Translations under genes and position numbers: made by a program
Notes under the pieces: model-generated
What the model saw: the letters and a program-made list of their open reading frames with translations, nothing else
What the model was told of the DNA's origin: nothing
Databases searched by the model: none
Shown: positions 8,889 through 29,500 of the stretch, in pieces
How the letters are laid out: every line of letters begins with the position of its first letter
Position numbering within the stretch: position 1 is the first letter of the stretch
Virus record (IMG/VR): IMGVR_UViG_3300030430_003330
Coordinates: 8,431 to 42,838 of that record
Source: a virus
Direction: 5' to 3' (one strand)
Length of the DNA stretch: 34,408 nt

Positions 8889-9256
8889 TATGTAGACCTC
8901 CACATTCTTAACTGTAAATGGTTTTCATCATTACCAACTTCAATAAGCTGGCAAGTGACTGAAACATCTAAATGTGAATACCAACTAATCCGTCTAGCCA
9001 CATCATAGAATATATTCCTCTCAGTTTCATTTTGCAGAACCATACTTTCACCTACATCCATACTGAGTAAAATATGCTCGGCCATTTCTTTAGTAAACCT
9101 ACTTCGTAATGTAGCAGGGCTACCTATCCTGACATCTCTTTTAATACCAGTAGTAACTTCAACTCCACATATCTCACGTGTTCTAGATTCTGTCTTATCT
9201 GCCTTTTTTTTCATATCGTCAGATAAGATTTTCCAAGCCTGTTCAATCTTATTCAT
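8888..9256 (-). CDS. Early protein of unknown function (122 aa)
   Basis: The likely start is ATG 9254-9256, with AGAGG eight bases upstream; a GTG three codons earlier is the alternative. The protein begins with a charged helix (MNKIEQAWKILSDDMKKKAD) and continues as alternating strands and helices, without transmembrane segments or motifs I recognise. It overlaps the preceding gene by eight bases and shares one base with the zinc-finger gene, so the three genes form one leftward early unit. Not identified. Confidence 0.7.
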   Translation of the reverse strand: MNKIEQAWKILSDDMKKKADKTESRTREICGVEVTTGIKRDVRIGSPATLRSRFTKEMAEHILLSMDVGESMVLQNETERNIFYDVARRISWYSHLDVSVTCQLIEVGNDENHLQLRMWRST

Positions 9257-9449
9257 CAAGCCCACCTCTCAACAAGTGCATGACATTATTGATGTCAGTA
9301 TTACCTAGAACTTGTCTAGTATCTTCAACGTGCAAGTCACTATTTCTAACAACTTGTATTCCATTCACAACTAAGTCTCGTAACTCAGTCTCAGCTCCCA
9401 CTAATAATTGGTTGCCTGAATCGTCCGTAATTATAAATTTGTATTTCAT
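9249..9449 (-). CDS. Early protein of unknown function (66 aa)
   Basis: The start is ATG 9447-9449, preceded by AAGGAG at a spacing of eight; a longer in-frame extension has a Cys/Phe-rich, unlikely sequence and overlaps the promoter, so I reject it. The 66-residue product starts MKYKFIITDDSGNQLLVG, which looks like a small beta-rich domain, and ends in a helix. It is first in a three-gene leftward unit behind the promoter at 9472-9499. No function recognised. Confidence 0.72.
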   Translation of the reverse strand: MKYKFIITDDSGNQLLVGAETELRDLVVNGIQVVRNSDLHVEDTRQVLGNTDINNVMHLLRGGLDE

Positions 9450-9471
9450 AATCTCGTTCTCCTTATCTATT

Positions 9472-9499
9472 AGTTTACACAAAGTAAATAATAATACAA
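9472..9499 (-). promoter_or_regulatory. Early promoter with spacer motif
   Basis: Minus strand: -35 TTGTAT (9499-9494), 16-base spacer, -10 TAAACT (9477-9472). The spacer carries TTATTTACTTTGTG, aligned with TGTTTACATGTGG and TGTTTACTTGTGG in the promoters at 10060 and 10469. Start site about 9465, giving a 16-base leader with a Shine-Dalgarno. Weakest member of the set. Confidence 0.5.
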
Positions 9500-9540
9500 G
9501 GGGTAAACAAAAAAAACACCACTTATTTTTTAACACTAGA

Positions 9541-9679
9541 CCCAGGCACTTTGGGAAAACGATACATGACAAATACATCTTGCGCCTGGGCTTTGTGTGT
9601 TCTTATTGTGTTATGGTATCCCGATCATTCCGACTAATCCCCCGTTTATCAATCCCGACCCGATCCCGAGTTGTCAGCC
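9541..9679. promoter_or_regulatory. Early intergenic cassette: inverted repeat, ACACAATA box, GTCGGG-like cluster
   Basis: CCCAGGC (9541-9547) pairs with GCCTGGG (9584-9590). TATTGTGT (9604-9611; ACACAATA on minus) follows, then a run of CCCGAT/CCCGAC-like hexamers from 9620 to 9669, with the exact hexamer at 9654-9659. The rest of 9450-9725 holds the promoter and an AT-rich stretch with no gene. Confidence 0.45.
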
Positions 9680-9725
9680 AACCAAGCCAAGAACAAACAT
9701 ATAAATATTATAAACCACTCAAACA

Positions 9726-10034
9726 TTACAGCCATCTTTGTTCAATAGCATAACCGTCTTCATACAATATACGGGACAAGGTATAAACCAAATGAAACCC
9801 CATATCCATTCCGCAACCACTAACAAAGACGGAGCGGGTATTATCTTTATATGTCCATTCTAGTAACTGGGATATATACCAGCTGACATTCTCAACATGT
9901 CCTTTTTTTTGTGATCCTGCTACCATTATGTGCCTCGACATACCTGAGGGGGCAACTTTAGTTACTAAAGTATAAGCAGTTGATCCTTTAGGAAATTTTT
10001 CTTTGAGTATTTCTTTTACTCTCTCTTTATCCAT
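9726..10034 (-). CDS. Conserved early protein of unknown function (102 aa)
   Basis: The start is ATG 10032-10034 with AAGGAGA about six bases upstream; an upstream in-frame ATG would read through the promoter and is rejected. The protein begins MDKERVKEILKEKFPKGS, then has motif-like stretches VAPSGMSRHI and VFVSGCGMDMGFHLVYTLS. I recall similar small proteins in many phages without known function. The Ser/Cys/Met-rich GCGMDMG segment looks like a functional site. It is a single-gene unit with its own strong promoter at 10060-10088. Confidence 0.78.
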   Translation of the reverse strand: MDKERVKEILKEKFPKGSTAYTLVTKVAPSGMSRHIMVAGSQKKGHVENVSWYISQLLEWTYKDNTRSVFVSGCGMDMGFHLVYTLSRILYEDGYAIEQRWL

Positions 10035-10059
10035 CCAATTCTCCTTATAGTGTCCCTTA

Positions 10060-10088
10060 AGTATACCACATGTAAACAGTAATGTCAA
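10060..10088 (-). promoter_or_regulatory. Strong sigma70-type early promoter
   Basis: Minus strand: consensus -35 TTGACA (10088-10083), 17-base spacer, -10 TATACT (10065-10060) with TGG just before it (extended -10). The spacer contains TGTTTACATGTGG, shared with the other early promoters. Start site about 10053, 20 bases before the ATG, with the Shine-Dalgarno between. Confidence 0.75.
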
Positions 10089-10111
10089 CTATCGGAATAG
10101 GAACTACTAGT

Positions 10112-10214
10112 CCAGGCACGCTGCGTGCCAGATCCTGGGTGTGATTACTATTGTGTAATACTTACCTCGTAGAGCGATCAGGATCACTACCAGCGATCCC
10201 GACCTGCTCCCGAC
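10112..10214. promoter_or_regulatory. Early intergenic cassette: hairpin, ACACAATA box, two GTCGGG
   Basis: Hairpin GGCACG-CTG-CGTGCC at 10115-10129, with flanking CCAG/CTGG able to extend it. TATTGTGT box at 10149-10156 (ACACAATA on minus). CCCGAC at 10198-10203 and 10209-10214 (GTCGGG on minus), the second directly after the stop of the 74-aa gene. Same order of parts as the cassettes at 9541 and 10502. Confidence 0.45.
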
Positions 10215-10439
10215 TTAGTCGAGTAAAACCATATAGGCTTCAGGCTCATATTCTAGAAACCAATCAATACCTTTGCGGACTAAATCGTAATCTTCAGTAT
10301 ATTCAGCACCTTTGATTACATCATAAACAGCAAGAGCATCTGCTTCTAGCTTATAACTTTCACCACTATATGGGTTAGTTACTTCAACGGGTTCAGTTTT
10401 ACTAACTGCTACTTGAAACGGTAATTGTCTATCTGACAT
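10215..10439 (-). CDS. Early protein of unknown function (74 aa)
   Basis: An acidic 74-residue protein starting MSDRQLPFQVAVSKTEPVEV, with AAGGAG seven bases before the ATG. The middle is strand-like and the C-terminus helical and aromatic (GIDWFLEYEPEAYMVLLD). No known motif. It is the rightmost leftward early gene, has its own promoter (10469-10496) and is followed directly by a GTCGGG element. Possibly among the first genes expressed, given its place beside the divergent control region; function not recognised. Confidence 0.72.
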   Translation of the reverse strand: MSDRQLPFQVAVSKTEPVEVTNPYSGESYKLEADALAVYDVIKGAEYTEDYDLVRKGIDWFLEYEPEAYMVLLD

Positions 10440-10468
10440 ATCATCTCCTTATTTAAGTGTATGTAATT

Positions 10469-10496
10469 ACTTTACCACAAGTAAACAACAAGTCAA
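10469..10496 (-). promoter_or_regulatory. Early promoter with spacer motif
   Basis: Minus strand: -35 TTGACT (10496-10491), 16-base spacer, -10 TAAAGT (10474-10469). The spacer carries TGTTTACTTGTGG, differing from the 10060 promoter by one base in thirteen. Start site about 10462, 23 bases before the ATG. Confidence 0.65.
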
Positions 10497-10501
10497 CTTA
10501 T

Positions 10502-10887
10502 GTGACAGATCTTTTTCTGAGAGATCTATCACGAACTCCCTGGTTGCGTCTCATCTGGAAGACGGTATTGTGTTGTGTGTGTTATACTGACCTGTAAGGC
10601 ATTTAGTCACTAACCCGACAACCCGACCCGACACCCGACTGATTTTTGTTTGAGAAAGCGACTGAGAGAGCGAGGGTATGCAGTTCAACCCCTACTCTAC
10701 CCCCAAATAACTCTATTTTTTATGTATAAACTGTTTACATCATGTAATACTTATGCTTAAATAGTATTTGTGTTTATGTATGGTATGCACAAAAGTGGTA
10801 AGCATTTAAATCTATACCAGTTTCTTAGCTTCTGCTACGATATGAACAAAGCCGTACATATTCACATTAACTATTAGGAGAATTATT
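10502..10887. promoter_or_regulatory. Divergent early control region
   Basis: A 386-base stretch without a gene. It holds an 11-bp inverted repeat with one mismatch (GTGACAGATCT at 10502-10512 and AGATCTATCAC at 10522-10532), a TATTGTGT box (10566-10573) followed by a TG-repeat, four CCCGAC hexamers (10614-10619, 10622-10627, 10627-10632, 10634-10639), a rightward promoter (10723-10751) and about 130 bases of AT-rich leader before the ATG at 10888. It separates leftward and rightward early genes. Confidence 0.5.
10723..10751 (+). promoter_or_regulatory. Candidate rightward early promoter
   Basis: Plus strand: TGTATA (10723-10728), 17 bases, AATACT (10746-10751; TAATAC is the other reading). 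The spacer contains TGTTTACAT (10732-10740), the core found in the leftward early promoters, which argues that it is related to them. The -35 is poor. The first gene starts about 130 bases downstream, so a second, closer promoter may exist. Confidence 0.4.
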
Positions 10888-11292
10888 ATGGCTAGAAAAC
10901 TAACCATTAACGAAAGAAATATACTCGTTGATCGAGCATACAACGAGATTAGGACTGAGAGCATATCTAAGCTTGAATCCGAAATGCAGAATAACCCCAA
11001 GTTTCTTGATATCCAAGCTTGTAAACAAGCGATCAAAGACAAGAATCAAGAGATAGAAGATATTGAAGAAAAAATCAAAAAGCTTCACAAAGCTTTTAAC
11101 AAAGATTTGAATAATGATAACTTCGAATTTAAAAACCAATATGATTATCATTACAATGGTAACTTCAAATGGGATGACAAAGGTTTAAGAAGTAAAATTG
11201 AAACTGAAGTTGTCTTAGCTAACTTAGGTGATTCAGTAGATTTTGAAAAACTTATTGCTTCACTCAAAGATAAGTTTGGAGTATCAGAATGA
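10888..11292 (+). CDS. Coiled-coil early protein (134 aa)
   Basis: First gene of the rightward early operon, with AGGAG about eight bases before the ATG. Residues about 15-75 form a long charged helix with Ile/Leu heptads (QEIEDIEEKIKKLHKAF), probably a coiled coil. Next comes an aromatic/Asn stretch (YDYHYNGNFKWDDKG) and a helical C-terminus. No enzyme motif is visible. Its stop overlaps the next ATG by four bases. Likely a dimeric early regulator or host-interacting protein, but this is only position-based inference. Confidence 0.75.
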   Translation: MARKLTINERNILVDRAYNEIRTESISKLESEMQNNPKFLDIQACKQAIKDKNQEIEDIEEKIKKLHKAFNKDLNNDNFEFKNQYDYHYNGNFKWDDKGLRSKIETEVVLANLGDSVDFEKLIASLKDKFGVSE

Positions 11293-18254: not shown

Positions 18255-20365
18255 ATCTTACAGAAGACGAGAAGCCTCTCGATCTAGCGTTAGCTTATTA
18301 CGATGAGGGTCTCTCTGTAGTACCATTACTTAGGCAATCAAAAAAGCCTCCAGTTTTTTTGGGTGGTTGGCATCAATACAAAACAGAAAGGCCCAAAAGA
18401 GAGACTGTTATTGAGTGGTTCAAAGATCGTGATGATCTAGTTGTAGCACTTATTTGCGGTCAATTTATTGTTGTTGATGCTGATACACCTGAAGCTATGG
18501 GGTGGGTTGATAACAACCTGCCCCCCTCTCCTTTCAAAGTAGTAACTGGTAAAGGTATGCACTATTACTATAACAACCCTGAAAACTTTACTACCTTTGC
18601 GACCAAAAGAACTAATGATACTCCAATAGAAAGATTGATCGATATTAGAGGAGAGGGTGGTTTAATCATTGCTCCTTATAATAAACACGCTAACGGTAAT
18701 TTATACAAACCACAAACTATACCCGAATGGGACATACATGACTTTGATGATCTGCCTGATTTTACAGAAAAAGAATGGGAGCAGATCACAGGCAACAGCA
18801 AAAACAATAACGGTCAGATGGTGACTGCACCCTTTTCACTAGACGGCGTAAACGAGGGTTCAAGAAATGATCAAGCTGCAAGGTTAGCTGGTTATTTAAT
18901 TTCAAAAAATTTAAATCTAGAGTTTGCAAAGTTTTTTATGCAATCATGGAACACACAAAATCAACCGCCTTTGTCGCAAGCAGAGATAAATTCTGTGGTT
19001 GATAATGTAAAAAAGACGCATGACAGAAAAAATCAAAGAGCACCACTATTCACTAATACCAAAGAACAAGTAACACCACCAAAAGATTTATTTAATCCAC
19101 CTGGCATACTAAAAGACATGTTCAAGTTTTGCGAAGAACTTGCACAAGTATCACAACCAGAGCTTTCCGTTGTAGGTGCTCTTGCACTAGCAAGTGTCAG
19201 CTGTGGCAGATTATACCGCACTACTATGAACAACTTTGCTTCACTATATTTTATGGGTATAGCTAAGTCAGGCCAAGGTAAAGAAAATATAAAATCTTTT
19301 GTTGAAGCAGTGTTAAACATGTCAGAACACTCGGATCTGATTGTGGGTGATGGTTACACATCATCTGGTGCAGTCCATTCTATTTTGCGTTATAGGCCAA
19401 CACAAATAACAATTATGGATGAGTTTGGTAAAAGATTGGAAGCTATAGGAGCACAACAGAACACTAACAGAGAAGACGGCATACAAACACTTATGGAGGC
19501 TTGGGGCAGATGCCACGGCACCTTAAGACCTGATAACTACTCTCTTATGAGTGTGCCTGAACAATATAAAGACCAGGCTATGAATCGTGTTACACACAAG
19601 CCTGCTATAACTCTAGTAGGTTTATCAGTCCCACAAAATTTCTATAAGGCTTTAAACTCAGGTCGTATTGCTGATGGTTTTCTTAACAGATTTTTAGTAA
19701 TAGAGTCAAAAGAACCTAGGAAAGTACAAAGACTTAAAAAATTTAAAAGCCCGCCCTTACAGATGGTTAACTGGATTAACTATATCAGAAGATCAAGGTC
19801 TGAGTTTGGCGGTATAGAACTTAATAATGCAGAACTAGATTTTAGGCCACACGTTATACCTTTTTCACAAGACAGCGAACAATTGTTAAATGAGTTCGCA
19901 CAAGAAATAGTGAAAAGGCAGATAGTGCTTGAAAAAGATAATCTAGAACCCCTGCTATCTAGAACAAGAGAAAAAGCTATGCGATTGTCTTTAGTCTGTG
20001 CTCTAGCTGACAATCCTGATTGCAAAGAAATACCAGGGCATGTAACTCAATGGTGTATTGATTATGTCAGATATTATGACTTGCTCTTTATTGAAGCATG
20101 CCGAGATAAGGTAGCATCATCAGCTACTGAATCTAAAATTAAGCAAGTTCTATCTTTTATTAGATCAAGAGGAGATACAGGCATATCAAAAAGAGAAGTA
20201 GATAGGGGTGAGTTGTTTCGTAGTATGAAATCGTATGAGGTCAAAGAAATTATAGAGAGACTTAAAAATGCAGGTGAGGTACAAGAAATGGATATTAAAA
20301 TTGGTGGCAAAGGCAGACCAACAAAAAGATTGGTAGCTGTAGACCCAACTTACTATGAGGATTAA
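18242..20365 (+). CDS. Bifunctional primase-polymerase / DUF3987-like helicase (707 aa)
   Basis: Probably the replication initiator that both primes and unwinds. Residues about 12-175 are a prim-pol domain: VVDAD (78-82) with the catalytic Asp pair, KGMHYY (104-109) and DIRGEGGLIIAP (134-145). A PriCT_1-like helical domain spans about 200-262. Residues about 280-560 form a P-loop ATPase resembling DUF3987, with Walker A GIAKSGQGKEN (339-349) and Walker B TIMDEFG (390-396). The C-terminus (about 630-700) looks like a winged helix. Full length, with motifs intact. It overlaps the regulator by 13 bases and is followed at once by a nuclease gene. Confidence 0.88.
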   Translation: MFNLNLTEDEKPLDLALAYYDEGLSVVPLLRQSKKPPVFLGGWHQYKTERPKRETVIEWFKDRDDLVVALICGQFIVVDADTPEAMGWVDNNLPPSPFKVVTGKGMHYYYNNPENFTTFATKRTNDTPIERLIDIRGEGGLIIAPYNKHANGNLYKPQTIPEWDIHDFDDLPDFTEKEWEQITGNSKNNNGQMVTAPFSLDGVNEGSRNDQAARLAGYLISKNLNLEFAKFFMQSWNTQNQPPLSQAEINSVVDNVKKTHDRKNQRAPLFTNTKEQVTPPKDLFNPPGILKDMFKFCEELAQVSQPELSVVGALALASVSCGRLYRTTMNNFASLYFMGIAKSGQGKENIKSFVEAVLNMSEHSDLIVGDGYTSSGAVHSILRYRPTQITIMDEFGKRLEAIGAQQNTNREDGIQTLMEAWGRCHGTLRPDNYSLMSVPEQYKDQAMNRVTHKPAITLVGLSVPQNFYKALNSGRIADGFLNRFLVIESKEPRKVQRLKKFKSPPLQMVNWINYIRRSRSEFGGIELNNAELDFRPHVIPFSQDSEQLLNEFAQEIVKRQIVLEKDNLEPLLSRTREKAMRLSLVCALADNPDCKEIPGHVTQWCIDYVRYYDLLFIEACRDKVASSATESKIKQVLSFIRSRGDTGISKREVDRGELFRSMKSYEVKEIIERLKNAGEVQEMDIKIGGKGRPTKRLVAVDPTYYED

Positions 20366-20367
20366 TT

Positions 20368-20832
20368 ATGAAAAAACCAAGTTTCGAAACTATTGACGAT
20401 CAAAAAAGAGAAGAGCGAGTAGCAGGTTACTTAGAGGGAGCGTGGGATGTAACTTGCTACAAGCTTCCCACAAGTTATGGTCTAGATTATTGGATAGAAT
20501 CCAAAGACAAAAGTTATTGGTGTGAAGTCAAATGCAGATCTTTTTCATTTGATAAATACGACACATTTATTTTATCTGTAGCAAAACTGATGAAAGGTGC
20601 TATGTATGCACAATCTACTGGTATCCCATTTATAACCGTATATGCTATGACGGATGGCTTATACTATCATGAATGGGATCCAGATTATGTTTACGATATA
20701 AGGATGAACATATCGCCTGATCCCACTTACGAGGAAGACAACGAGCCTTATGCGCACATACCCAAAGATATGCTAAAATGTTTAAGTGATAAGCCACTAG
20801 GCTTAGATAGGAGTGAAATAGGAATATGTTAG
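20368..20832 (+). CDS. PD-(D/E)XK nuclease-fold protein (154 aa)
   Basis: Two bases after the prim-pol stop, with GAGG before the ATG. Motifs: Glu15/16 in a helix, YGLDYWIES with Asp40, and WCEVKCRSFS with Glu53 and Lys55, then a helix starting YDTFILSVAKLMK. This is the layout of the small PD-(D/E)XK endonucleases, such as Holliday-junction resolvase-like or VRR-type proteins. It probably cuts branched or damaged DNA in replication (inference). The C-terminal 50 residues are acidic and Pro-rich. The holin gene starts 7 bases before its stop. Confidence 0.75.
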   Translation: MKKPSFETIDDQKREERVAGYLEGAWDVTCYKLPTSYGLDYWIESKDKSYWCEVKCRSFSFDKYDTFILSVAKLMKGAMYAQSTGIPFITVYAMTDGLYYHEWDPDYVYDIRMNISPDPTYEEDNEPYAHIPKDMLKCLSDKPLGLDRSEIGIC

Positions 20833-21311
20833 ACAAGTTAAAATCAATAGTTGGTGTAGTAGCACCAACATTAGCACAAGGCTTGGCAAATCCAGCAGGT
20901 GCTATCTCAGGTTTAGCTATAAATGCAATAGCTGAAAAATTAGGTATAGAAGCAAACCCACAAGCAGTATCTAAAGCTTTGGGCGACCACCCAACAAAAG
21001 AACAAATGTTGGAACTGAAAAAAATTGAGCAAGATTTCAAATTAGAAATGAAACAGTTAGGGTTGGATGTTTACAAAGTTCAAACCCAAGATATACAAAA
21101 TGCTAGAAAAACATTTAGTGGCGATTGGACATCTAAAATACTAGGATTCATTACAATAGGTGGTTTTATGGGTTATATATTTTTGGTAACAATACAACCG
21201 CCTGAACAAAATAGTGAGGCTTTAATTAACCTTGTGCTAGGTTACTTAGGTGGATTAGCAAGTGCAGTCATATCATTTTACTTTGGTGCTTCACATAAAA
21301 AGGACGAGTAG
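20826..21311 (+). CDS. Holin-like 3-TM protein (161 aa)
   Basis: A Leu/Ala-rich amphipathic N-terminal half (VAPTLAQGLANPAGAISGLA) is followed by a charged helix and, at about 105-155, two clear transmembrane stretches (LGFITIGGFMGYIFLVTIQP and a Leu/Gly-rich segment). This fits the 3-TM holin family of phages and gene transfer agents. Holins let lytic enzymes reach the cell wall. It overlaps the nuclease gene by 7 bases and ends inside a stem of the structured RNA at 21306. No endolysin gene was recognised in the window. Confidence 0.75.
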   Translation: MLDKLKSIVGVVAPTLAQGLANPAGAISGLAINAIAEKLGIEANPQAVSKALGDHPTKEQMLELKKIEQDFKLEMKQLGLDVYKVQTQDIQNARKTFSGDWTSKILGFITIGGFMGYIFLVTIQPPEQNSEALINLVLGYLGGLASAVISFYFGASHKKDE

Positions 21312-21378
21312 TCTGTTGACTAGCGTAAAGCTCATTGGTTTCCATACAAAACCAGGGGAACATCAGACTACTCTTTTT
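21306..21378 (+). ncRNA. Structured RNA element with terminator-like end
   Basis: A perfect 10-bp stem, GAGTAGTCTG (21306-21315) with CAGACTACTC (21364-21373), encloses 48 bases and is followed by TTTTT (21374-21378). The enclosed part has small stems AGC/GCT and TGGTTT/AAACCA, so the whole could be a three-way junction. The closing stem contains the holin stop codon, and the U-tract ends two bases before the next ATG. It may terminate or attenuate transcription, or control entry to the csg cassette. No known riboswitch class recognised. Confidence 0.6.
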
Positions 21379-21380
21379 AC

Positions 21381-21731
21381 ATGCAAGATATAGTTACAAT
21401 TATTCAACAAGTAGGTTTTCCGATAGCAGCAGCTCTTGGGTTGGGTTGGTTCATTTACAAACTAATCATGCGTATTGTTGATGGTATGGAAAATAAATTA
21501 GATGTAGTTGACGAAAAAGTAGCAGAACAGATAACCGCTATGGAACAAAGACTAGGCACTAAATTAGACTCTCAACATGGTATCTTAGTGGCTTTGATAG
21601 ATCGTATCCGAAGTTTGGACAATGAGATTATTAGACAAGACACCTTAATAAAAACTATACTAGGAGTACCACAGTTAATTGATAGTAATAAAATTGCTAA
21701 GGCAGACAGAGATGATCAAAGAAAAGATTAG
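21381..21731 (+). CDS. Membrane-anchored coiled-coil protein (116 aa)
   Basis: One transmembrane helix at about residues 12-33 (FPIAAALGLGWFIYKLIMRI) followed by a coiled coil to about residue 90 (DEKVAEQITAMEQRLGTKLD) and a basic tail. Small one-TM coiled-coil proteins of this type lie in many phage lysis regions, as XhlA-like or spanin/holin accessory proteins. It starts directly after the U-tract of the RNA element, without a clear Shine-Dalgarno. Its end overlaps the 33-aa gene by 20 bases. Lysis role is inferred from position and topology. Confidence 0.7.
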   Translation: MQDIVTIIQQVGFPIAAALGLGWFIYKLIMRIVDGMENKLDVVDEKVAEQITAMEQRLGTKLDSQHGILVALIDRIRSLDNEIIRQDTLIKTILGVPQLIDSNKIAKADRDDQRKD

Positions 21732-21813
21732 ATATAAAACAGACTGGCAAAAATTAACAGTTTGGATTTTAATGATAAGCTTTTGTTTGTGGGTTTGGAG
21801 TTTGGTTCTATGA
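21712..21813 (+). CDS. 33-residue one-TM protein
   Basis: The frame ATG 21712-21714 to TGA 21811-21813 encodes a basic head (MIKEKIRYKTDWQK) and one hydrophobic helix (LTVWILMISFCLWVWSLVL). The basic-inside plan predicts the N-terminus in the cytoplasm. It overlaps the upstream gene by 20 bases and the CsgF ATG by four (ATGA), fitting coupled translation. It may be a lysis or pore accessory peptide. Too short for homology; the TM character and overlaps are the support. Confidence 0.5.
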   Translation: MIKEKIRYKTDWQKLTVWILMISFCLWVWSLVL

Positions 21814-22286
21814 ATGACGATTATTACAAAGACAAATATAAAAGGACAGGTTGCGCAATATACTTAATCCCATTCTTAATGCTTCCTGTCCTTGCTGATG
21901 AAATTAAATTTCAGTTTAAGTCTCCATCATTTAGTGGTGTTGGTACAAGTCAGCATTATTTAACTATTGACGAGCAAGAGTATTCTAGGCGTGAAGCTTT
22001 GGAGGCTGAAATAAAAGCATTACAAGACGAGCTACAAAGAGATGCTGAGAACACAACGTTAGCAAGATTTTTAAGAAACTTTGAGTCTAGAGTTTACGCA
22101 CAATTATCCAGGCAATTAGTAGATCAATTATTTGGCGAAGATCCAGCAGATCAAGGCAGCTTCACTCTGTTCGATAATCTGATAACTTGGACTAGCGACG
22201 GTATAACTATTACAATGTCTATATTTAATGAAACTACTGGCGAAACAACTACTATCACTATCCCTATTGGGGACTTTGGTTTCTAG
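21810..22286 (+). CDS. csgF: CsgF-like curli accessory protein (158 aa)
   Basis: CsgF binds the CsgG pore at the cell surface and helps nucleate curli fibres. I chose ATG 21810-21812 because GGAG lies nine bases upstream; an in-frame TTG 16 codons earlier is weaker. Residues 1-29 form a signal peptide (CAIYLIPFLMLPVLA, cut before Asp30). The mature start IKFQFKSPSFSGVGTSQHYL matches the pore-binding start of E. coli CsgF (FQFRNPNFGG). The C-terminal GETTTITIPIGDFGF matches its GQTSTIQV end. The middle is a helical insert, making it somewhat longer than E. coli CsgF. Its last 59 bases also encode the CsgG start. Confidence 0.85.
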   Translation: MNDDYYKDKYKRTGCAIYLIPFLMLPVLADEIKFQFKSPSFSGVGTSQHYLTIDEQEYSRREALEAEIKALQDELQRDAENTTLARFLRNFESRVYAQLSRQLVDQLFGEDPADQGSFTLFDNLITWTSDGITITMSIFNETTGETTTITIPIGDFGF

Positions 22287-23073
22287 TTGCACTACACATC
22301 TATCTTACATATCTCCTTGTTTACAAAATCCAGATAACGATTACAAAGATGTTGTCACTATAGTCGGTAAGGCAGAGTGTTTTTCTAAATCTGCTTTTAT
22401 CAACTTACCTGTAACTGATGCTATAAAACAAGTAAAACCAGCGAAGCAAAGACCTGTAGTTGCTGTTTATGCTTTTCCTGATGCAACGGGACAACGTAAA
22501 TCAATTGATGGTTATGCTAGTTTTAGTTCAGCACTAACACAAGCACCTGAAGCTTATGTGATAAGAGCGTTAAAACAATCACGTTTTTTTCGTGTAGTAG
22601 AACGAGTAGGTATAGATCATGTTACAAGAGAACGACAAATAATAAGATCCACAAGAGAAAGATTTGAAGAAGACGATCAGCAACTACCCTTATTGTTTGC
22701 AGGCACTATCCTTGAAGGTGTCATAATTGATTACAACACTAACCTGCTTACTGGTGGTATGGGTGCTAGATATTTAGGTATAGGTAATTCAAAACAATAT
22801 CGTGAAGATACTGTTGTGGTGTCTATGCGTTTAGTTTCTGTATCGACAGGTGAAATATTAATAGAAAATTTGACTACTAAAACTATCTTATCTGTAGGTT
22901 TATCAAACGATTTTTTTAGATATATTGCAGATGGTACTAAACTGGTTGAGTTCGAAAGTGGTAATGCTATGAATGAAAGTAAGTCTATAGCTTTGCAAGC
23001 AGCGATAGAAACTGGTATTGTAGACATAATAGCCCAAGGTGAAGAGAAGAGTTATTGGCAATATATGGAATGA
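22228..23073 (+). CDS. csgG: CsgG-like outer-membrane curli secretion channel (281 aa)
   Basis: CsgG forms a nonameric beta-barrel pore in the outer membrane that exports curli subunits. A lipoprotein signal with lipobox LVSSC gives acylated Cys21. Matches to E. coli CsgG run through the core: VVAVYAFPDATGQRK, VGIDHVTRERQIIR, ILEGVIIDYNTN, GGMGARYLGIG, MRLVSVSTGEIL, TKTILSVGLSNDFFRYI and AAIETGIVDII. In the constriction loop, Phe99 fits the conserved Phe56 while the Asn55 position seems to be Ser98. Length is typical. The signal peptide is encoded in an overlap with csgF. Phage csgG-like genes have, from memory, been noted in some marine phages. Confidence 0.93.
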   Translation: MKLLAKQLLSLSLLGTLVSSCTTHLSYISPCLQNPDNDYKDVVTIVGKAECFSKSAFINLPVTDAIKQVKPAKQRPVVAVYAFPDATGQRKSIDGYASFSSALTQAPEAYVIRALKQSRFFRVVERVGIDHVTRERQIIRSTRERFEEDDQQLPLLFAGTILEGVIIDYNTNLLTGGMGARYLGIGNSKQYREDTVVVSMRLVSVSTGEILIENLTTKTILSVGLSNDFFRYIADGTKLVEFESGNAMNESKSIALQAAIETGIVDIIAQGEEKSYWQYME

Positions 23074-23792
23074 TTATGCGTATAATTTTTTTACTTTTAT
23101 CTTTAGGTTTATTTGCAGATGACGAAATATTCGTTGAGCAAACTGGTTCAAATGCCACTATAAAGTTAGAACAACTTGGTAGTAGCAACTTGATCGGTGG
23201 CACAAGTGCTGTTTCTGGCACAATGACTGCTTTGGATCTAGACGGTACAGATATGACACTTACTATTAATCAAATAGGAAGTAGTAACATATTCAGATCA
23301 GATGGCATAAATTCAGATAATGTAACAGGTTATTTTGACTTTCAAGGCGACTCAAACGTGCTTGATATTTTGTTAAATAGCAACGGTGCATATTCTGCAG
23401 ACTACGCCAATCTTAATGTTCAAGTTGCAGGTGGAAGCAATACATTTGATATTGAGATAGGTGAGGCATCTAATGCTGATTATTTAGATTTGGATTGGAT
23501 TATAGATGGAGATAATAACGAATTTGAATTTGATATTGATTACGAAAATGCTACTAACTATATAGATGTTTTTGGAGATGGCAACGAACTTACTTTTTCT
23601 GGAAGTGGATATGCAGGCACAAGTGCTAGCGATAGTGGCTATTTTTATTTAGATCTAGATGGTAGTTCTAACACCTTCACTATTACACAATCATCAACCC
23701 TAGCTAGAGACTGGCTCAAGATTACAACAAATGGATCTAATTCGACTTTTTGTGTGGTACAAAATGACGGTGGGACTTCTACTACATGCTAG
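23070..23792 (+). CDS. Curlin-like secreted repeat protein (240 aa)
   Basis: The likely start is ATG 23070, an ATGA overlap with the csgG stop; an upstream TTG is possible. Residues 1-16 are a signal peptide ending LFA, then DDE. The mature protein has nine strand-turn-strand repeats of the form xxGxxNxxxI. The first three carry curlin-type Gln-x-Gly-Ser-(Ser)-Asn (EQTGSN, EQLGSSN, NQIGSSN); the later ones keep Gly/Asn but are Asp-rich (for example VAGGSNTFDI, VFGDGNELTF, LDGSSNTFTI). Being next to csgF and csgG makes it the likely cargo. The last residue is a Cys, as is one 13 residues before. No CsgB-like partner is seen. Confidence 0.78.
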   Translation: MIMRIIFLLLSLGLFADDEIFVEQTGSNATIKLEQLGSSNLIGGTSAVSGTMTALDLDGTDMTLTINQIGSSNIFRSDGINSDNVTGYFDFQGDSNVLDILLNSNGAYSADYANLNVQVAGGSNTFDIEIGEASNADYLDLDWIIDGDNNEFEFDIDYENATNYIDVFGDGNELTFSGSGYAGTSASDSGYFYLDLDGSSNTFTITQSSTLARDWLKITTNGSNSTFCVVQNDGGTSTTC

Positions 23793-24816
23793 TAGTATAG
23801 GTGACATTACAGAACTGAGAGGGTATGGGCAAATCTTAAGAGATGAGCCCTATCCTGCAGTTTTAAACTTCGATATAAATTCTTATGATGACGTTCAAAC
23901 TAGAGCTGGGCGTATCGGTATTACCTTTCTTGATAATTCAACCGTTAAATTAACTGAACACTCTTCACTAATTATTGATGAATATATATATGATGCGAAT
24001 CCTAGTAACAGCAAAATGGCCTTACAGTTTGCTAGTGGCACTATACGGTTTATTTCAGGCCAACTAGCAAAAAACAATATATCTCTGAAAACACCAACCG
24101 CTGATATTGCAGTCAGAGGTACAGACTTCACTTGTACGGTAGATGAAACAGGTAAGTCTTTGATAATACTTTTGCCTAACGAGTTTGGCGATCCTAGTGG
24201 AGAGATAGTAGTGTCTACAGCTATGGGCCAGGTTGTACTTAATCAACCTTACCAAGCCACGACTACTAGGGTATATGAGCAATCACCAACCAAACCAGTA
24301 ACATTAGATATAGATCTACAGTTTATAGATAACATGTTAATTATTAGTCCACCTAAAGAAGAAAATGTTATTGCAGAAGAAAACACTAGTAATACCGCAG
24401 ATTACTTAGATTTTACAGATCTTGATGTAGATTTATTAGAAGAAGACTTATTAGAAGAAGATCCTGATTTTGAATTTACAGAGCTAGATATAGACTACCT
24501 CAACGTAAACTTTTTAGAAGATCTGCTAGATGTATTAGATTTATTAGAAGAAGAACAAGAAACAGAATTATTAGGACAGGTTTCAGGTGTTGACATACAA
24601 GGCACAAGTATTGGTCAAGATCTTGAAACAAACATCACAACTATTGTAGATGGAGATACTCTGCGTTTAATAAGAAAAGTTACACAAAATGCAGAACTAC
24701 AAATAAATGCTGATCAATCTTACACAGTAATTTTTACACAAGATGGTGTTACAAGAACTGTCAAGATAAACGGTGGTACTAATTCCAGTATTACCATATT
24801 ACAAAGTGCAGGATGA
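23731..24816 (+). CDS. FecR-domain periplasmic protein (361 aa)
   Basis: Contains a FecR domain at about 45-165: ITFLDNSTVKLTEHSSLIID, FASGTIRFISG, TPTADIAVRGTDFTCTV and VSTAMGQVVL. FecR domains act in the envelope and, in many bacteria, lie next to CHASE2-cyclase genes as here. The N-terminus has a basic head and a short hydrophobic run (MTVGLLLHASS), likely a signal peptide; Met12 (23764) is an alternative start. Residues about 224-282 are very acidic (DVDLLEEDLLEEDPDFEFTE). A beta-rich C-terminal domain follows. It overlaps the curlin gene by 62 bases. No anti-sigma TM segment, so it is not a classical FecR regulator. Confidence 0.82.
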   Translation: MDLIRLFVWYKMTVGLLLHASSIGDITELRGYGQILRDEPYPAVLNFDINSYDDVQTRAGRIGITFLDNSTVKLTEHSSLIIDEYIYDANPSNSKMALQFASGTIRFISGQLAKNNISLKTPTADIAVRGTDFTCTVDETGKSLIILLPNEFGDPSGEIVVSTAMGQVVLNQPYQATTTRVYEQSPTKPVTLDIDLQFIDNMLIISPPKEENVIAEENTSNTADYLDFTDLDVDLLEEDLLEEDPDFEFTELDIDYLNVNFLEDLLDVLDLLEEEQETELLGQVSGVDIQGTSIGQDLETNITTIVDGDTLRLIRKVTQNAELQINADQSYTVIFTQDGVTRTVKINGGTNSSITILQSAG

Positions 24817-26561
24817 GACTTAAAATATTTTTTGTACTATTAGGTATATTATCAATACCGCTGATTACACAATCTACACCTACTGAAATATTAAAATTAA
24901 AAGTCTTTGATGCTTTGGTAGAGAAACATAAACCATCTGAATACTTCACTATAATTAATATTGATGAATCTACTATACAGGCAGAGGGTGGTTGGCCTCT
25001 ACCAAGATCAAGAATAGGACAGATAACAGAAGAAATATTTGCAAATGGTGCAATAGGTGTTGGTTGGGTGTTATCATTTGTAGATAAAGACAGGTTTGAG
25101 AATGGTGGTGATGACTACCTCTTTAAAAAGTTAAGTACATATCCCACAGTTGTTGCCACTTTCTCATATGACAACCAAGTATATCCATCACCAGAGGGAA
25201 CCGTAATCTTAGGGGAAGATGCTCCTGGTATTTTATTAGAGGGTCATTTACCTAACATACCTGGTATGTCAGATGTAACGTTAGAGGGAATAGTTTCAGC
25301 ACCTGTTGACGTTGATAACTTAGTAAGACGGCTACCTCTTATGTATCGTATACCTGACGGCTGGGTGCCTAGCTTCGGTACTCAAGTTTATAAGTTGCTT
25401 ACTGGCTCTGATACTTATGTAATAAAAACTAACGAGTACGGTTTAGAAGAGATCAGAGTAAAAGGTATACCGCCTGTTAAGGTCGATAGTCTAGGTCGGA
25501 AATGGATAAGTTGGGTCGATACACCTGAAACAACTTTGTCCGAAATGCAAGTTGCTAATAAATTTGTATTCGTTGGTGTGACTGGTAAGGGCATAATGCC
25601 GCAAGTGGCTACAAGTTCTGGTGAATTATTAGAGCCACATAAAATACAAGCTGCTCTAGCCGAGTCAATCTTGATACAAAACTCACCATATATACCAGAT
25701 TGGCATTTAGCGGCCGAAATTATAATTTTTGGAATTTTTTGCTTTCTTATTTGGCTTCTAACGCAATCTTTTGGAGTTACTAATGGTTTGGTAAGCTTTT
25801 TATTACTATTTTTGGCTACAGGTTATACAGGAGCTTACATGATAGGTAGGGGTATTTTACTGGATTTTTCTTATACTTTAGTGTCTGGATTTATAACTGG
25901 GGCTGTATCTTTCTACTTAAACTTCGAAAAACAATATAAATTACGTCAACAAATTAAAAAACAGTTCGAGCATTATTTGGATCCAAGACAAGTAAAACGT
26001 TTGCAAGACAATCCTGACCTTTTAAAGTTAGGTGGTGAAAAAAGATATTGCACTTACTTATTCACAGATGTTAGAGGTTTTACTGCTTTATCAGAAAAAC
26101 TTGAACCTGAACAAGTTACTGAGATTATGAACAAAGCTTTGACTATTCAAGCTAATGCAGTTCAACGTAACGGAGGTATGGTTGATAAATATATCGGTGA
26201 CGCTATGATGGCAATCTTTAATGCACCTATGGATCTTATGCACCATGAAGAAGTTGCTGTTAAGACAGGGCTTCAAATACGAGACGAAATAAAAGCAGCA
26301 AAGTTAGGTATTGAAATTGGTATAGGGATAAATTCAGGGCCAGCTGTTGTAGGTAATATGGGGTCAGATTCACGTTTCGATTATAGTGCTATTGGTGATG
26401 CAGTCAATACAGCGGCTAGATTAGAAAGTGCAACTAAAGATCGTAAGGTTGATATCTTGATTGGTAAATCTACAGAAGATCTTTGTGGTTATCATTTGCA
26501 GAAACTAAAACCTATTGCAGTAAAAGGTAAGTCTGAACCTTTAGAAATATATACTATATGA
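24813..26561 (+). CDS. CHASE2-domain class III adenylate/guanylate cyclase (582 aa)
   Basis: A membrane sensor that should make cAMP (or cGMP). An N-terminal TM or signal anchor (about 4-20), periplasmic CHASE2 domain (about 24-295, with LKVFDALVEKH and VGWVLSFVDKDRF), three TM helices (about 300-368), a linker FEHYLDPRQVKRLQDNPD, then the cyclase domain (about 408-582). Catalytic residues are all present: metal-binding Asp419 (FTDVRGFT) and Asp463 (YIGDAMMA), purine-binding Lys459 and Asp529 (AIGDAVNTAARLE), and Asn532/Arg536. Lys plus Asp at the purine sites points to ATP. Full length, ATGA overlap with the FecR gene. Rare in phages, as far as I know. Confidence 0.92.
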   Translation: MRLKIFFVLLGILSIPLITQSTPTEILKLKVFDALVEKHKPSEYFTIINIDESTIQAEGGWPLPRSRIGQITEEIFANGAIGVGWVLSFVDKDRFENGGDDYLFKKLSTYPTVVATFSYDNQVYPSPEGTVILGEDAPGILLEGHLPNIPGMSDVTLEGIVSAPVDVDNLVRRLPLMYRIPDGWVPSFGTQVYKLLTGSDTYVIKTNEYGLEEIRVKGIPPVKVDSLGRKWISWVDTPETTLSEMQVANKFVFVGVTGKGIMPQVATSSGELLEPHKIQAALAESILIQNSPYIPDWHLAAEIIIFGIFCFLIWLLTQSFGVTNGLVSFLLLFLATGYTGAYMIGRGILLDFSYTLVSGFITGAVSFYLNFEKQYKLRQQIKKQFEHYLDPRQVKRLQDNPDLLKLGGEKRYCTYLFTDVRGFTALSEKLEPEQVTEIMNKALTIQANAVQRNGGMVDKYIGDAMMAIFNAPMDLMHHEEVAVKTGLQIRDEIKAAKLGIEIGIGINSGPAVVGNMGSDSRFDYSAIGDAVNTAARLESATKDRKVDILIGKSTEDLCGYHLQKLKPIAVKGKSEPLEIYTI

Positions 26562-29500
26562 TTGGTTTGAAGCCTAGCTCTTGTTCTCTTTCTAATACAG
26601 TTTTTTGGTCAGCCCCAGGCAAAGATGGTTGTATGATTGGCACACTAGCAACTTCAGGTAGAGCTATTCTTGGTCTTGCTTGAAATCTGCTTTCTGCTTC
26701 TTTCAAAAGGTTTTGCAATTGATCTTGTGCTTGATTATCAATATCACTAGCTTCTGTTTGTTTTATTAGTTCATCTTCTATAGTGTCTACGGCATCTTCT
26801 GTAACTCTTGATAATTCTTGTATACCACCAATTCTAAGCATTCTTTCAAACAGTTCTATTACTTGTACTACTGCTGACTTATCTGTTCTTGCCATTAATT
26901 TAAGAAAAAACGGGTTTTGGAAAGCTGCCCTCAAAACAGCCATACCACCAATAGTAGGCCAAATAGCAGGATTGAAAGAATTTATAGCAATTGCTGCAGC
27001 AACCAAAGTACCAGGAGATCCGCCACGCCCCACTTCTTTAGCAGTAGTAGCTTGTATCGTTCTTGCTAAGTTATTGAGTCCTTGTGCAACGTCTTGGCCG
27101 AACATAGCCTCTAAGGTTTCATCACCGTAAGATCTAAGAATATTTTCAAACTTATCAGCTTGAAAAATTTTAGATATATCACCACCTTTTGCCATTCCAT
27201 CAAAATCAATTGCTCTTTGTAACATCTTGTTCATAGCATTATTTTGTATTTCTGTAAAAGCTTCATCACCAACGGTTTCTTTTACTAATCGTATATTAGA
27301 AGCCCCTTGTGGTGTAAATATTTTACTAACAACTTCTTCTGTTGTAGCTTCTGGTAATTTACTAACAATTAAGTTACCTTCTAACGCTTGTGCTTTGGAT
27401 TTAGCCTCAGCTAACTCTTCTAAACCTTCCAAAAACTTTTTGCCACTAGTTTCTGTGCCTAAGCCAAATTTTTGATCTTTGGCTTGAGCTTTAAAATTTG
27501 CTATTAAACCACGCATTTCTGAAGCCTTTATGTTTGGTTTTAGTTTGTTAACTTGGCTTAAAACATCCATAAATTTAAAAGCATCCATTTCGTCGCCTAA
27601 CAAAGCTTGTAGTTTGCCTCTATCCACACCTCTTTTATCAAACTTAGAAAGAAATGTAGCAAACTTAGAAAAGTCTATAACACCAGTTCCAGCGTCGAAT
27701 GACTCTTCAAAGGCATCTGCCATTAATTTTTGTTTGAGTGTGTTTCTTAAATCACCAAGCTTATTAGATTTAGGTTCCCCTTTTTTAGCTATACTATTCA
27801 TATAGTCATCATAATCTTTAGTAGCTTTAAAAATATCATTTAAATCGTCTGAAGAGCCACCTCTTACGGCTGACTTATAAACTTGATTAGCGTTGTAAGC
27901 TCCTTTTTTACTTTCTTTTGTAATTTTATTTATTAAAGCAGAATCATAAGCTCTTAAAACATCTGCTGCATATTGGTTCGAATCTCTAAGTAATGTGCCT
28001 GCTTGGTTAACTATATTAATATCATCACCAAACAAACCGCCTTTCACTAACCTTTTACCTATTCCTGGATCTGCTAACTCATCTAAAGATGATTCAAAAA
28101 TATCTATCATTTGTTTAGCAAGGTTATTACCATCACTACTTTCTAAATATAAAGATGCTTCCTCCTTCATATTAGAAACTGTGTTTCTTAATGAAGTTAA
28201 ATTAAGCTGATTGGCATTTTTCAGATCTTCTATTTTTTCAACTTTCTTTTTAAAATATTGATAAGGATTATCTCTAAAAGCAACTTGTTCTCCTACCCCA
28301 ACATCATCATAATCTATCAACCTATCGCCTTTGAAATCATCTAACTTATCTTTAGCTCTTTTCAACATAGGGCTAATAACTTCTTTGTTAATGACTGGCA
28401 TTATGTTGCCTGTACTTGATTGTCTTAACCTAGCATCTGCATTTTGATATTTAGTTCTCATGTTTTGAAAAATACCTTTTCTTACTTCAGCTAAATCTGC
28501 AATAATTTTTTCACCTATCAAAGGATCAGCCATTCTTGAAGATTCTAGGCTCACATCGGCAAATTCTTCGACCACATCATTAAGATATTTTTCTAGTTTT
28601 TTAACTGTATCAATTTCAGCTGTTTTTACTTTAGTTATTGCTTGTTGAACAGTATTATCCAATTGAGCTTTTTGTGCTTTTGACATAGCTGTACGGCTAG
28701 CGTAACCTGATATGACCTCTGCTAGTTCACCACTTAATTGACTGTCTTTATTTATTTTATTGTAAAGTTCTGATACTTCTCTAAATAAATAAGCTTTAGT
28801 TTTTTCTGATCTTTGATTACCCAAAACTTGTTCAAACAACCCTTGAAATCTTCCTGGTAGGTTACGACCAAAAGCTGCTTGTGCTGGTAAGGCTTTTTCT
28901 TGATAAACTTTTACAGTACCTTGCGTAATAGCTTTTTTTATTTCTGCATCAGTAGCTTCACGACCTAGTTTTTTATCTAACTTCATGATGTCATCTAAAC
29001 TTCTACCTTGTACGCCTTGTCTGAAAAGTCTAAGATTATCAAACGGAGCCTGCTTACCTAATAATAAACCGTAGCCTATACCTAGTGCTTCCCCTAATCC
29101 TTGTGCTACACCACCAATAACAAACTCACCTCTTAGCATATCAGCTAATTCACCTGCTTCTTGTTCTTGTAGACCTTGGATAGATTCGTAAGCCTCTTCG
29201 CCTGCTTTACCAACAGCTGAACCTGAGCCTGCAGCTATAATACGAGACAATCTAGGACCACCATTAAAGAATTTTAACCCTCTCGTTATACCGCCTATTA
29301 TTTTTGCTTGTGGGGTTAAAAATGTTAAGGCACCAACTAAAGGTCCCGTCATACCTGCGAAATCTGCTAAATCGCCTTGAGTGAAGCCAAATGAGTTTTC
29401 GTCTATTATACGGTTAAGAGCTAACTTCGAACCATCTCCTAAAGTAACGTAATCGGGTTTTAATCCTAATACTCTTAAACCTTCAGGGGTAAGAGCCATT

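Follow-up and report, generated by a model that had tools for sequence, protein, structure and literature searches.

A predicted CHASE2-linked class IIIb adenylyl cyclase in the curli cassette of an HTVC023P-type pelagiphage relative

Why should a phage that probably infects SAR11 bacteria make cAMP, when hosts of this type apparently have neither a cyclase of their own nor the usual cAMP receptor? The puzzle arises from a gene in the 34,408-nucleotide stretch of viral DNA analysed here (the window; bases 8431-42838 of the 42,838-base record IMGVR_UViG_3300030430_003330). An earlier note on this DNA had described a membrane cyclase with a periplasmic CHASE2 sensor that could set host cAMP in response to an envelope signal, possibly presented by a FecR protein, but it overlooked the curli (type VIII secretion, T8SS) cassette to which the gene belongs, the prior publication of that cassette and the apparent absence of the usual cAMP receivers. 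The discovery of the cyclase as such is not new, as HTVC023P-type podoviruses and pelagimyophages have been described as carrying a T8SS module in which FecR is accompanied by a histidine kinase and by an adenylate cyclase, with aggregation, superinfection exclusion and import discussed as its roles (Wittmers et al. 2022, PMC9599517). Curli genes have also been reported for pelagimyophages (PMC7029224) and for Melnitz (PMC9004378), whose infection proceeds without clumping (PMC9004378). The module of Wittmers et al. comes from the same phage group as the present locus, has its genes in the same order, and likewise contains FecR and ends with an adenylate cyclase; the CHASE2 domain, the class IIIb signature and the missing cAMP receptors are, in contrast, not discussed there, and the words 'CHASE2' and 'CRP' are absent from its text. 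New here are the CHASE2 sensor, the IIIb signature, bacterial relatives that pair the cyclase with FecR adhesins, and the puzzle of a messenger apparently lacking a receiver.

Domains and active site of the cyclase

The cyclase is encoded on the forward strand at positions 24813..26561, a 582-aa open reading frame whose coordinates and frame had been correctly assigned before. Pfam places a CHASE2 domain (PF05226) at residues 17-309 (E 2.1e-25) and a Guanylate_cyc domain (PF00211) at residues 412-580 (E 2e-21), whilst hydropathy marks hydrophobic stretches at residues 1-23, 294-323 and 326-344. The AF2 model (monomer, 37-sequence alignment, mean pLDDT 89.6) starts with a single helix, followed by an alpha/beta sensor domain, then by three long helices and finally by the cyclase domain, and it reveals a last transmembrane helix (~353-375) that lies below the hydropathy cut-off. 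The resulting layout comprises a first transmembrane helix (~2-18), CHASE2 (~20-297), further transmembrane helices (~298-319, 321-345 and 353-375), a linker and the cyclase domain (406-582): CHASE2 is thus predicted to sit between an N-terminal and several C-terminal membrane helices, as in CHASE2 membrane sensors, and the N-terminus would lie inside the cell, CHASE2 in the periplasm and the cyclase domain in the cytoplasm. Fold comparison matched the cyclase domain equally to CyaC of S. platensis (1wc1; Z 25.3, rmsd 1.8 over 175 residues) and CyaB of P. aeruginosa (3r5g; Z 25.3, rmsd 1.8); these matches to PDB entries span residues 370-582 only and do not extend to the CHASE2 part. CyaC and CyaB share both fold and active-site residues with the phage enzyme and possess the Lys-Thr pair of class IIIb, but they differ in carrying other sensor domains.

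The active-site stretch (residues 406-537, positions 26028..26423, forward strand) was analysed through alignments to CyaC, CyaB and Cya2 and through conservation across 83 sequences. D419 and D463 are assigned to metal binding, K459 to base recognition with S525 as its partner, and N532 and R536 to the transition state. D419, K459, D463, N532 and R536, all named in the earlier note, are correctly positioned and align with active-site residues of the three proven cyclases; conservation is complete for D419, K459 and D463 (83/83 each) and for R536 (82/82), with N532 retained in 81 of 82 sequences. A catalytic role had also been given to D529 (in the motif IGDAVN). This residue is not the base-selecting Asp, because the aligned residues are Pro in CyaC, Arg in P. 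aeruginosa CyaB and Ala in Cya2; the selector is instead S525, which lies seven residues ahead of N532, aligns with the Thr of CyaC and occupies a position held by Ser in 43, Thr in 39 and Asp in one of the 83 sequences.

The protein hence combines the class III fold, two metal-binding Asp residues, the transition-state Asn and Arg, and a Lys plus Thr/Ser pair. The Lys-Ser/Thr pair is the signature of class IIIb adenylyl cyclases and favours ATP. That the gene product is a catalytically competent class IIIb cyclase, predicted to be an adenylyl cyclase, is well supported by alignment and model, whilst homodimerisation and a preference for ATP would be expected from what is known of the family. 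The same pair, present in class IIIb adenylyl cyclases such as CyaC, speaks against an enzyme that makes cGMP or has mixed specificity, as does the K459 position, which is Lys in adenylyl cyclases but Glu in the guanylyl cyclase Cya2; sequence predicts base selection only partly and the CHASE2 cyclases of S. meliloti have been described as AC/GCs (PMC13001267), yet we regard such an enzyme as very unlikely here. The cyclase of Melnitz (positions 8971-11022 of locus L003) is the odd one out, with Ser at the equivalent of N532 and Asp at the equivalent of S525, and activity may therefore differ among phages.

Such enzymes are not rare in this group, contrary to the earlier note's remark that phages seldom encode them: at least 598 viral candidate stretches from a scan of viral contigs encode relatives of the cyclase, which is also annotated in HTVC008M and in four Melnitz isolates. 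Comparison with seven relatives gave dN/dS values of 0.14-0.18, several of the dS values being near saturation; together with the conserved active site, this indicates that the enzyme is maintained rather than decaying. The C-terminal part of the cyclase is sharply unlike that of the close relatives L005 and L006 (SAIGDAVNTAARLESATK as against TAIGSDVNLAARCESSCK), a contrast that suggests exchange of a segment in this part of the gene.

The curli cassette around the cyclase

The genes upstream of the cyclase, all on the forward strand, form a cassette for curli, which are amyloid fibres of the cell surface. The start of the cyclase is overlapped by 4 bases by fecR (23731..24816), which encodes a FecR-domain protein (PF04773, E 4e-12) that probably carries a signal peptide, and which may actually begin further downstream than its listed ATG. 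It is preceded by a gene for a curlin-repeat (CsgA/B-like) protein (23055..23792) with seven G-x-x-N-x-[FLIV] repeats, which the Pfam curlin model barely detects (PF07012, E 0.014, under its cut-off) and whose homologue in HTVC008M is annotated as curlin-associated. Further upstream lie csgG (22228..23073; PF03783, E 1.4e-44), for the outer-membrane curli pore lipoprotein, and csgF (21762..22286; PF10614, E 6e-16), whose frame starts with TTG and whose real start is probably an internal ATG at ~21810. Directly upstream of csgF, positions 21381..21731 encode a 116-aa protein with one transmembrane helix and a coiled coil that gives a weak match to a holin PHROG (E 0.0047). Wittmers et al. list a 'histidine kinase' before csgF, whereas Pfam found no histidine-kinase domain in the 116-aa protein, if this is the same gene; it is constant in podo- and myophages, and is possibly the 'HK' of that publication (PMC9599517). 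Promoter-like sites in positions 20300-26800 were no commoner than in shuffled sequences. A separate observation on repeat proteins is that positions 2324-2572 of locus L113 encode a small phage protein built of repeated MKKSKGG units.

Wherever contigs are long enough, the order 116-aa gene, csgF, csgG, curlin, fecR, cyclase is kept on one strand, with the cyclase last. The 116-aa gene and csgF were present at all 63 csgG loci with 1.5 kb upstream, and curlin, FecR and cyclase at all 46 with 5 kb downstream, a constancy that is conditional because the loci found through csgG are the relatives closest to the csgG of this phage; FecR and cyclase do not occur in every curli module (PMC9599517). 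The cyclases of HTVC008M (AGE60353.1, ~33% identity) and Melnitz (QZI94833.1, ~30%) are full-length homologues at the same end of the same cassette, but these phages differ in being T4-like myophages and in having one more gene, curlin-like and in Melnitz annotated as curlin-repeat, placed between fecR and the cyclase, Melnitz moreover in its altered equivalents of N532 and S525.

A 161-aa membrane protein (20826..21311, forward strand; phrog_1544, E 5.5e-19, function unknown) is encoded upstream of the cassette here, whereas many other loci (L031, L034 and L083 among them) have it after the cyclase; it appears holin-like, and its C-terminal half is strongly conserved (QPPEQNSEALINLVLGYLGGLASA). 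Small, holin-like-looking membrane proteins thus flank the cassette, and a role in lysis has been proposed for CsgGF of Melnitz (PMC9004378): the cassette could have been repurposed for lysis timing, in which case the pore and the cyclase, along with the small membrane proteins, would sense the envelope and set lysis or host shutdown, cAMP being a by-product or the reaction a drain on ATP. The holin assignment is weak, however, and purifying selection preserves CHASE2 no less than the active site and its base-selector pair; furthermore, the curlin-like and FecR proteins, found at every csgG locus scored (46/46), go beyond the needs of a pore or an ATP drain. We therefore consider repurposing for lysis to be improbable.

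FecR and CHASE2 as an envelope-sensing pair

A scan of bacterial genomes yielded 13 loci with relatives of the cyclase. L084, L085, L086 and L092 hold a phage-like cassette and are probably phage contigs inside bacterial bins, whilst L087 has the cyclase alone, at a contig edge; the bins of these loci are titled Pelagibacter, Neomarinimicrobiota and Flavobacteriaceae. A giant FecR-domain protein with RTX or cadherin-like repeats is encoded immediately upstream of the cyclase in Pelagibius marinus (L088) and P. litoralis (L094), and its FecR part aligns with the phage FecR. A CHASE2 cyclase thus adjoins a FecR-domain envelope protein as it does in the phage, but here the FecR domain lies inside a giant adhesin and no csgG was detected near either locus. 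In Campylobacterota, too, most CHASE2 cyclases lie in clusters with a FecR-domain protein of the outer membrane, but these clusters also hold a phosphodiesterase (PMC9239204), a gene not found linked to the phage cyclase. A bacterial curli operon was considered as source of the cyclase and rejected: at five alphaproteobacterial csgF loci, all with csgG, phmmer found neither FecR nor CHASE2-cyclase neighbours, so that the link between cyclase and curli is, in this small sample, a phage feature. By these comparisons the FecR-CHASE2 pair seems older than curli and separable from it, which suggests a portable sensor that travels with genes for surface fibres or adhesins.

The functional link to FecR proposed in the earlier note gains support from constant adjacency in the phages, from the Pelagibius loci and from the Campylobacterota clusters (PMC9239204), and Pfam, active-site alignments, conservation, model and fold match lend good support to its description of a membrane cyclase whose CHASE2 sensor lies in the periplasm. 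We consider it probable that, within the phage curli cassette, the intact class IIIb CHASE2 cyclase and FecR form a pair that senses the envelope, with the cyclase as its inner-membrane partner. The basis for this lies in the domain content, the fold, the active-site residues, purifying selection and the constant gene order; FecR as the direct partner of CHASE2, the signal and the effect of cAMP are our inferences. In an infected cell the cassette would supply CsgG/CsgF pores together with curlin-like fibres. FecR would be exported to the periplasm and there inform CHASE2 of the condition of the pore, of the fibre subunits or of the envelope, upon which the homodimeric cyclase would turn ATP into cAMP in the cytoplasm. 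Precedent for a protein signal that reaches CHASE2 cyclases from an outer-membrane partner exists in S. meliloti, where CyaD1, CyaD2 and CyaK act with the outer-membrane receptor NsrA (PMC13001267, PMC7529298), although that system is chromosomal, has the CRP-type receptor Clr and is not known to involve curli genes. Against the proposed mechanism speak the missing cAMP receptors (see below), the five alphaproteobacterial curli loci, the altered residues of the Melnitz cyclase and the lack of clumping in Melnitz infections (PMC9004378).

Host and possible receivers of cAMP

What such cAMP could do depends on the host. TerL of this phage is 60-63% identical to those of 023Pt_psg01, HTVC027P and HTVC023P, and DNA similarity agrees with a relatedness of the HTVC023P type; judged by this core gene and by DNA similarity the phage is a relative of HTVC023P-type pelagiphages, and its host is probably SAR11. 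A non-SAR11 marine bacterium with a cAMP system of its own, in which the phage cyclase would raise cAMP, is the alternative suggested by the TerL relative DSL-LC04, annotated with a gammaproteobacterial host, and by Melnitz, which infects Methylophilales. Against this stand the closest isolates by TerL, HTVC027P and HTVC023P, which both infect Pelagibacter HTCC1062; HTVC008M, which carries the same cassette and infects the same strain; and a G+C content of 37%, close to the 35-37% in the stretches of HTVC023P and 023Pt_psg01 examined. We thus hold a non-SAR11 host to be unlikely.

In order to survey the host lineage, 117 genomes of the SAR11 order were used, the order being that of G001, the bin that holds L084 and is titled Candidatus Pelagibacter; the genome sizes shown are 1.2-1.6 Mb, and many may be incomplete. 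Class I cyclases were found in none of the 117 and a class III cyclase in G001 only. This single match, a possible chromosomal SAR11 copy, was rejected as such: it lies in L084, whose curli cassette resembles that of the phages, and is hence taken as part of a phage contig in the bin. Receptors were sought through the cNMP-binding domain (PF00027) as the one receptor class covered, and matches occurred in 8 of the 117 genomes, with 109 lacking any. G001 has two: one in a protein of ~975 aa that is an ABC transporter by sequence, the other in a frame of similar size. In the other seven genomes the matches fall in frames of ~870 aa (one, at the edge of its contig, is recorded at 372 aa), and the one of these proteins examined in full is large, enzyme-like and unlike CRP. 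No recognisable CRP was found among the 117 genomes, neither of the two cNMP-match proteins examined in full being CRP-like. By eye, the ~870-aa protein of L100 (919-3264) combines cNMP-binding-like, acyltransferase-like and SGNH-like parts; its type is a candidate cAMP-binding protein in 7 of the 117 genomes. A phage-encoded cNMP receptor was also sought and rejected, PF00027 giving no match in the phage's own record or in ten other curli-phage records, including the complete HTVC008M and Melnitz.

With the usual receivers seemingly absent from SAR11-order genomes, the setting of host cAMP envisaged in the earlier note cannot simply mean the CRP route. Wittmers et al. suggested a route like that of E. 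coli, in which cAMP would act on a CRP-type regulator and so activate fibre or host genes: csgD of E. coli is under cAMP-CRP control (cited in PMC9599517), and the phage cyclase adjoins curli genes. Yet 109 SAR11-order genomes lack the binding domain altogether and the two proteins examined among the remainder are not CRP, the 11 phage records lack it too, and the phages have no csgD (PMC9599517), so that we find this route doubtful. A further, tentative reading retains the FecR-CHASE2 sensor: the phage would bring a cyclase with an envelope sensor into a lineage that has neither cyclase nor known cAMP receptor, for which reason the cAMP would need a receptor, in host or phage, that has so far escaped recognition, or else would have to work extracellularly.

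This cassette occurs widely in marine phages, and there is open debate over its purpose, with fibres, a pore and lysis timing all under discussion. An intact, sensor-linked cyclase under selection, in conjunction with seemingly missing receivers, replaces a vague annotation with a question that experiments can address, namely whether cAMP arises in SAR11 cells upon infection and which molecule binds it there.
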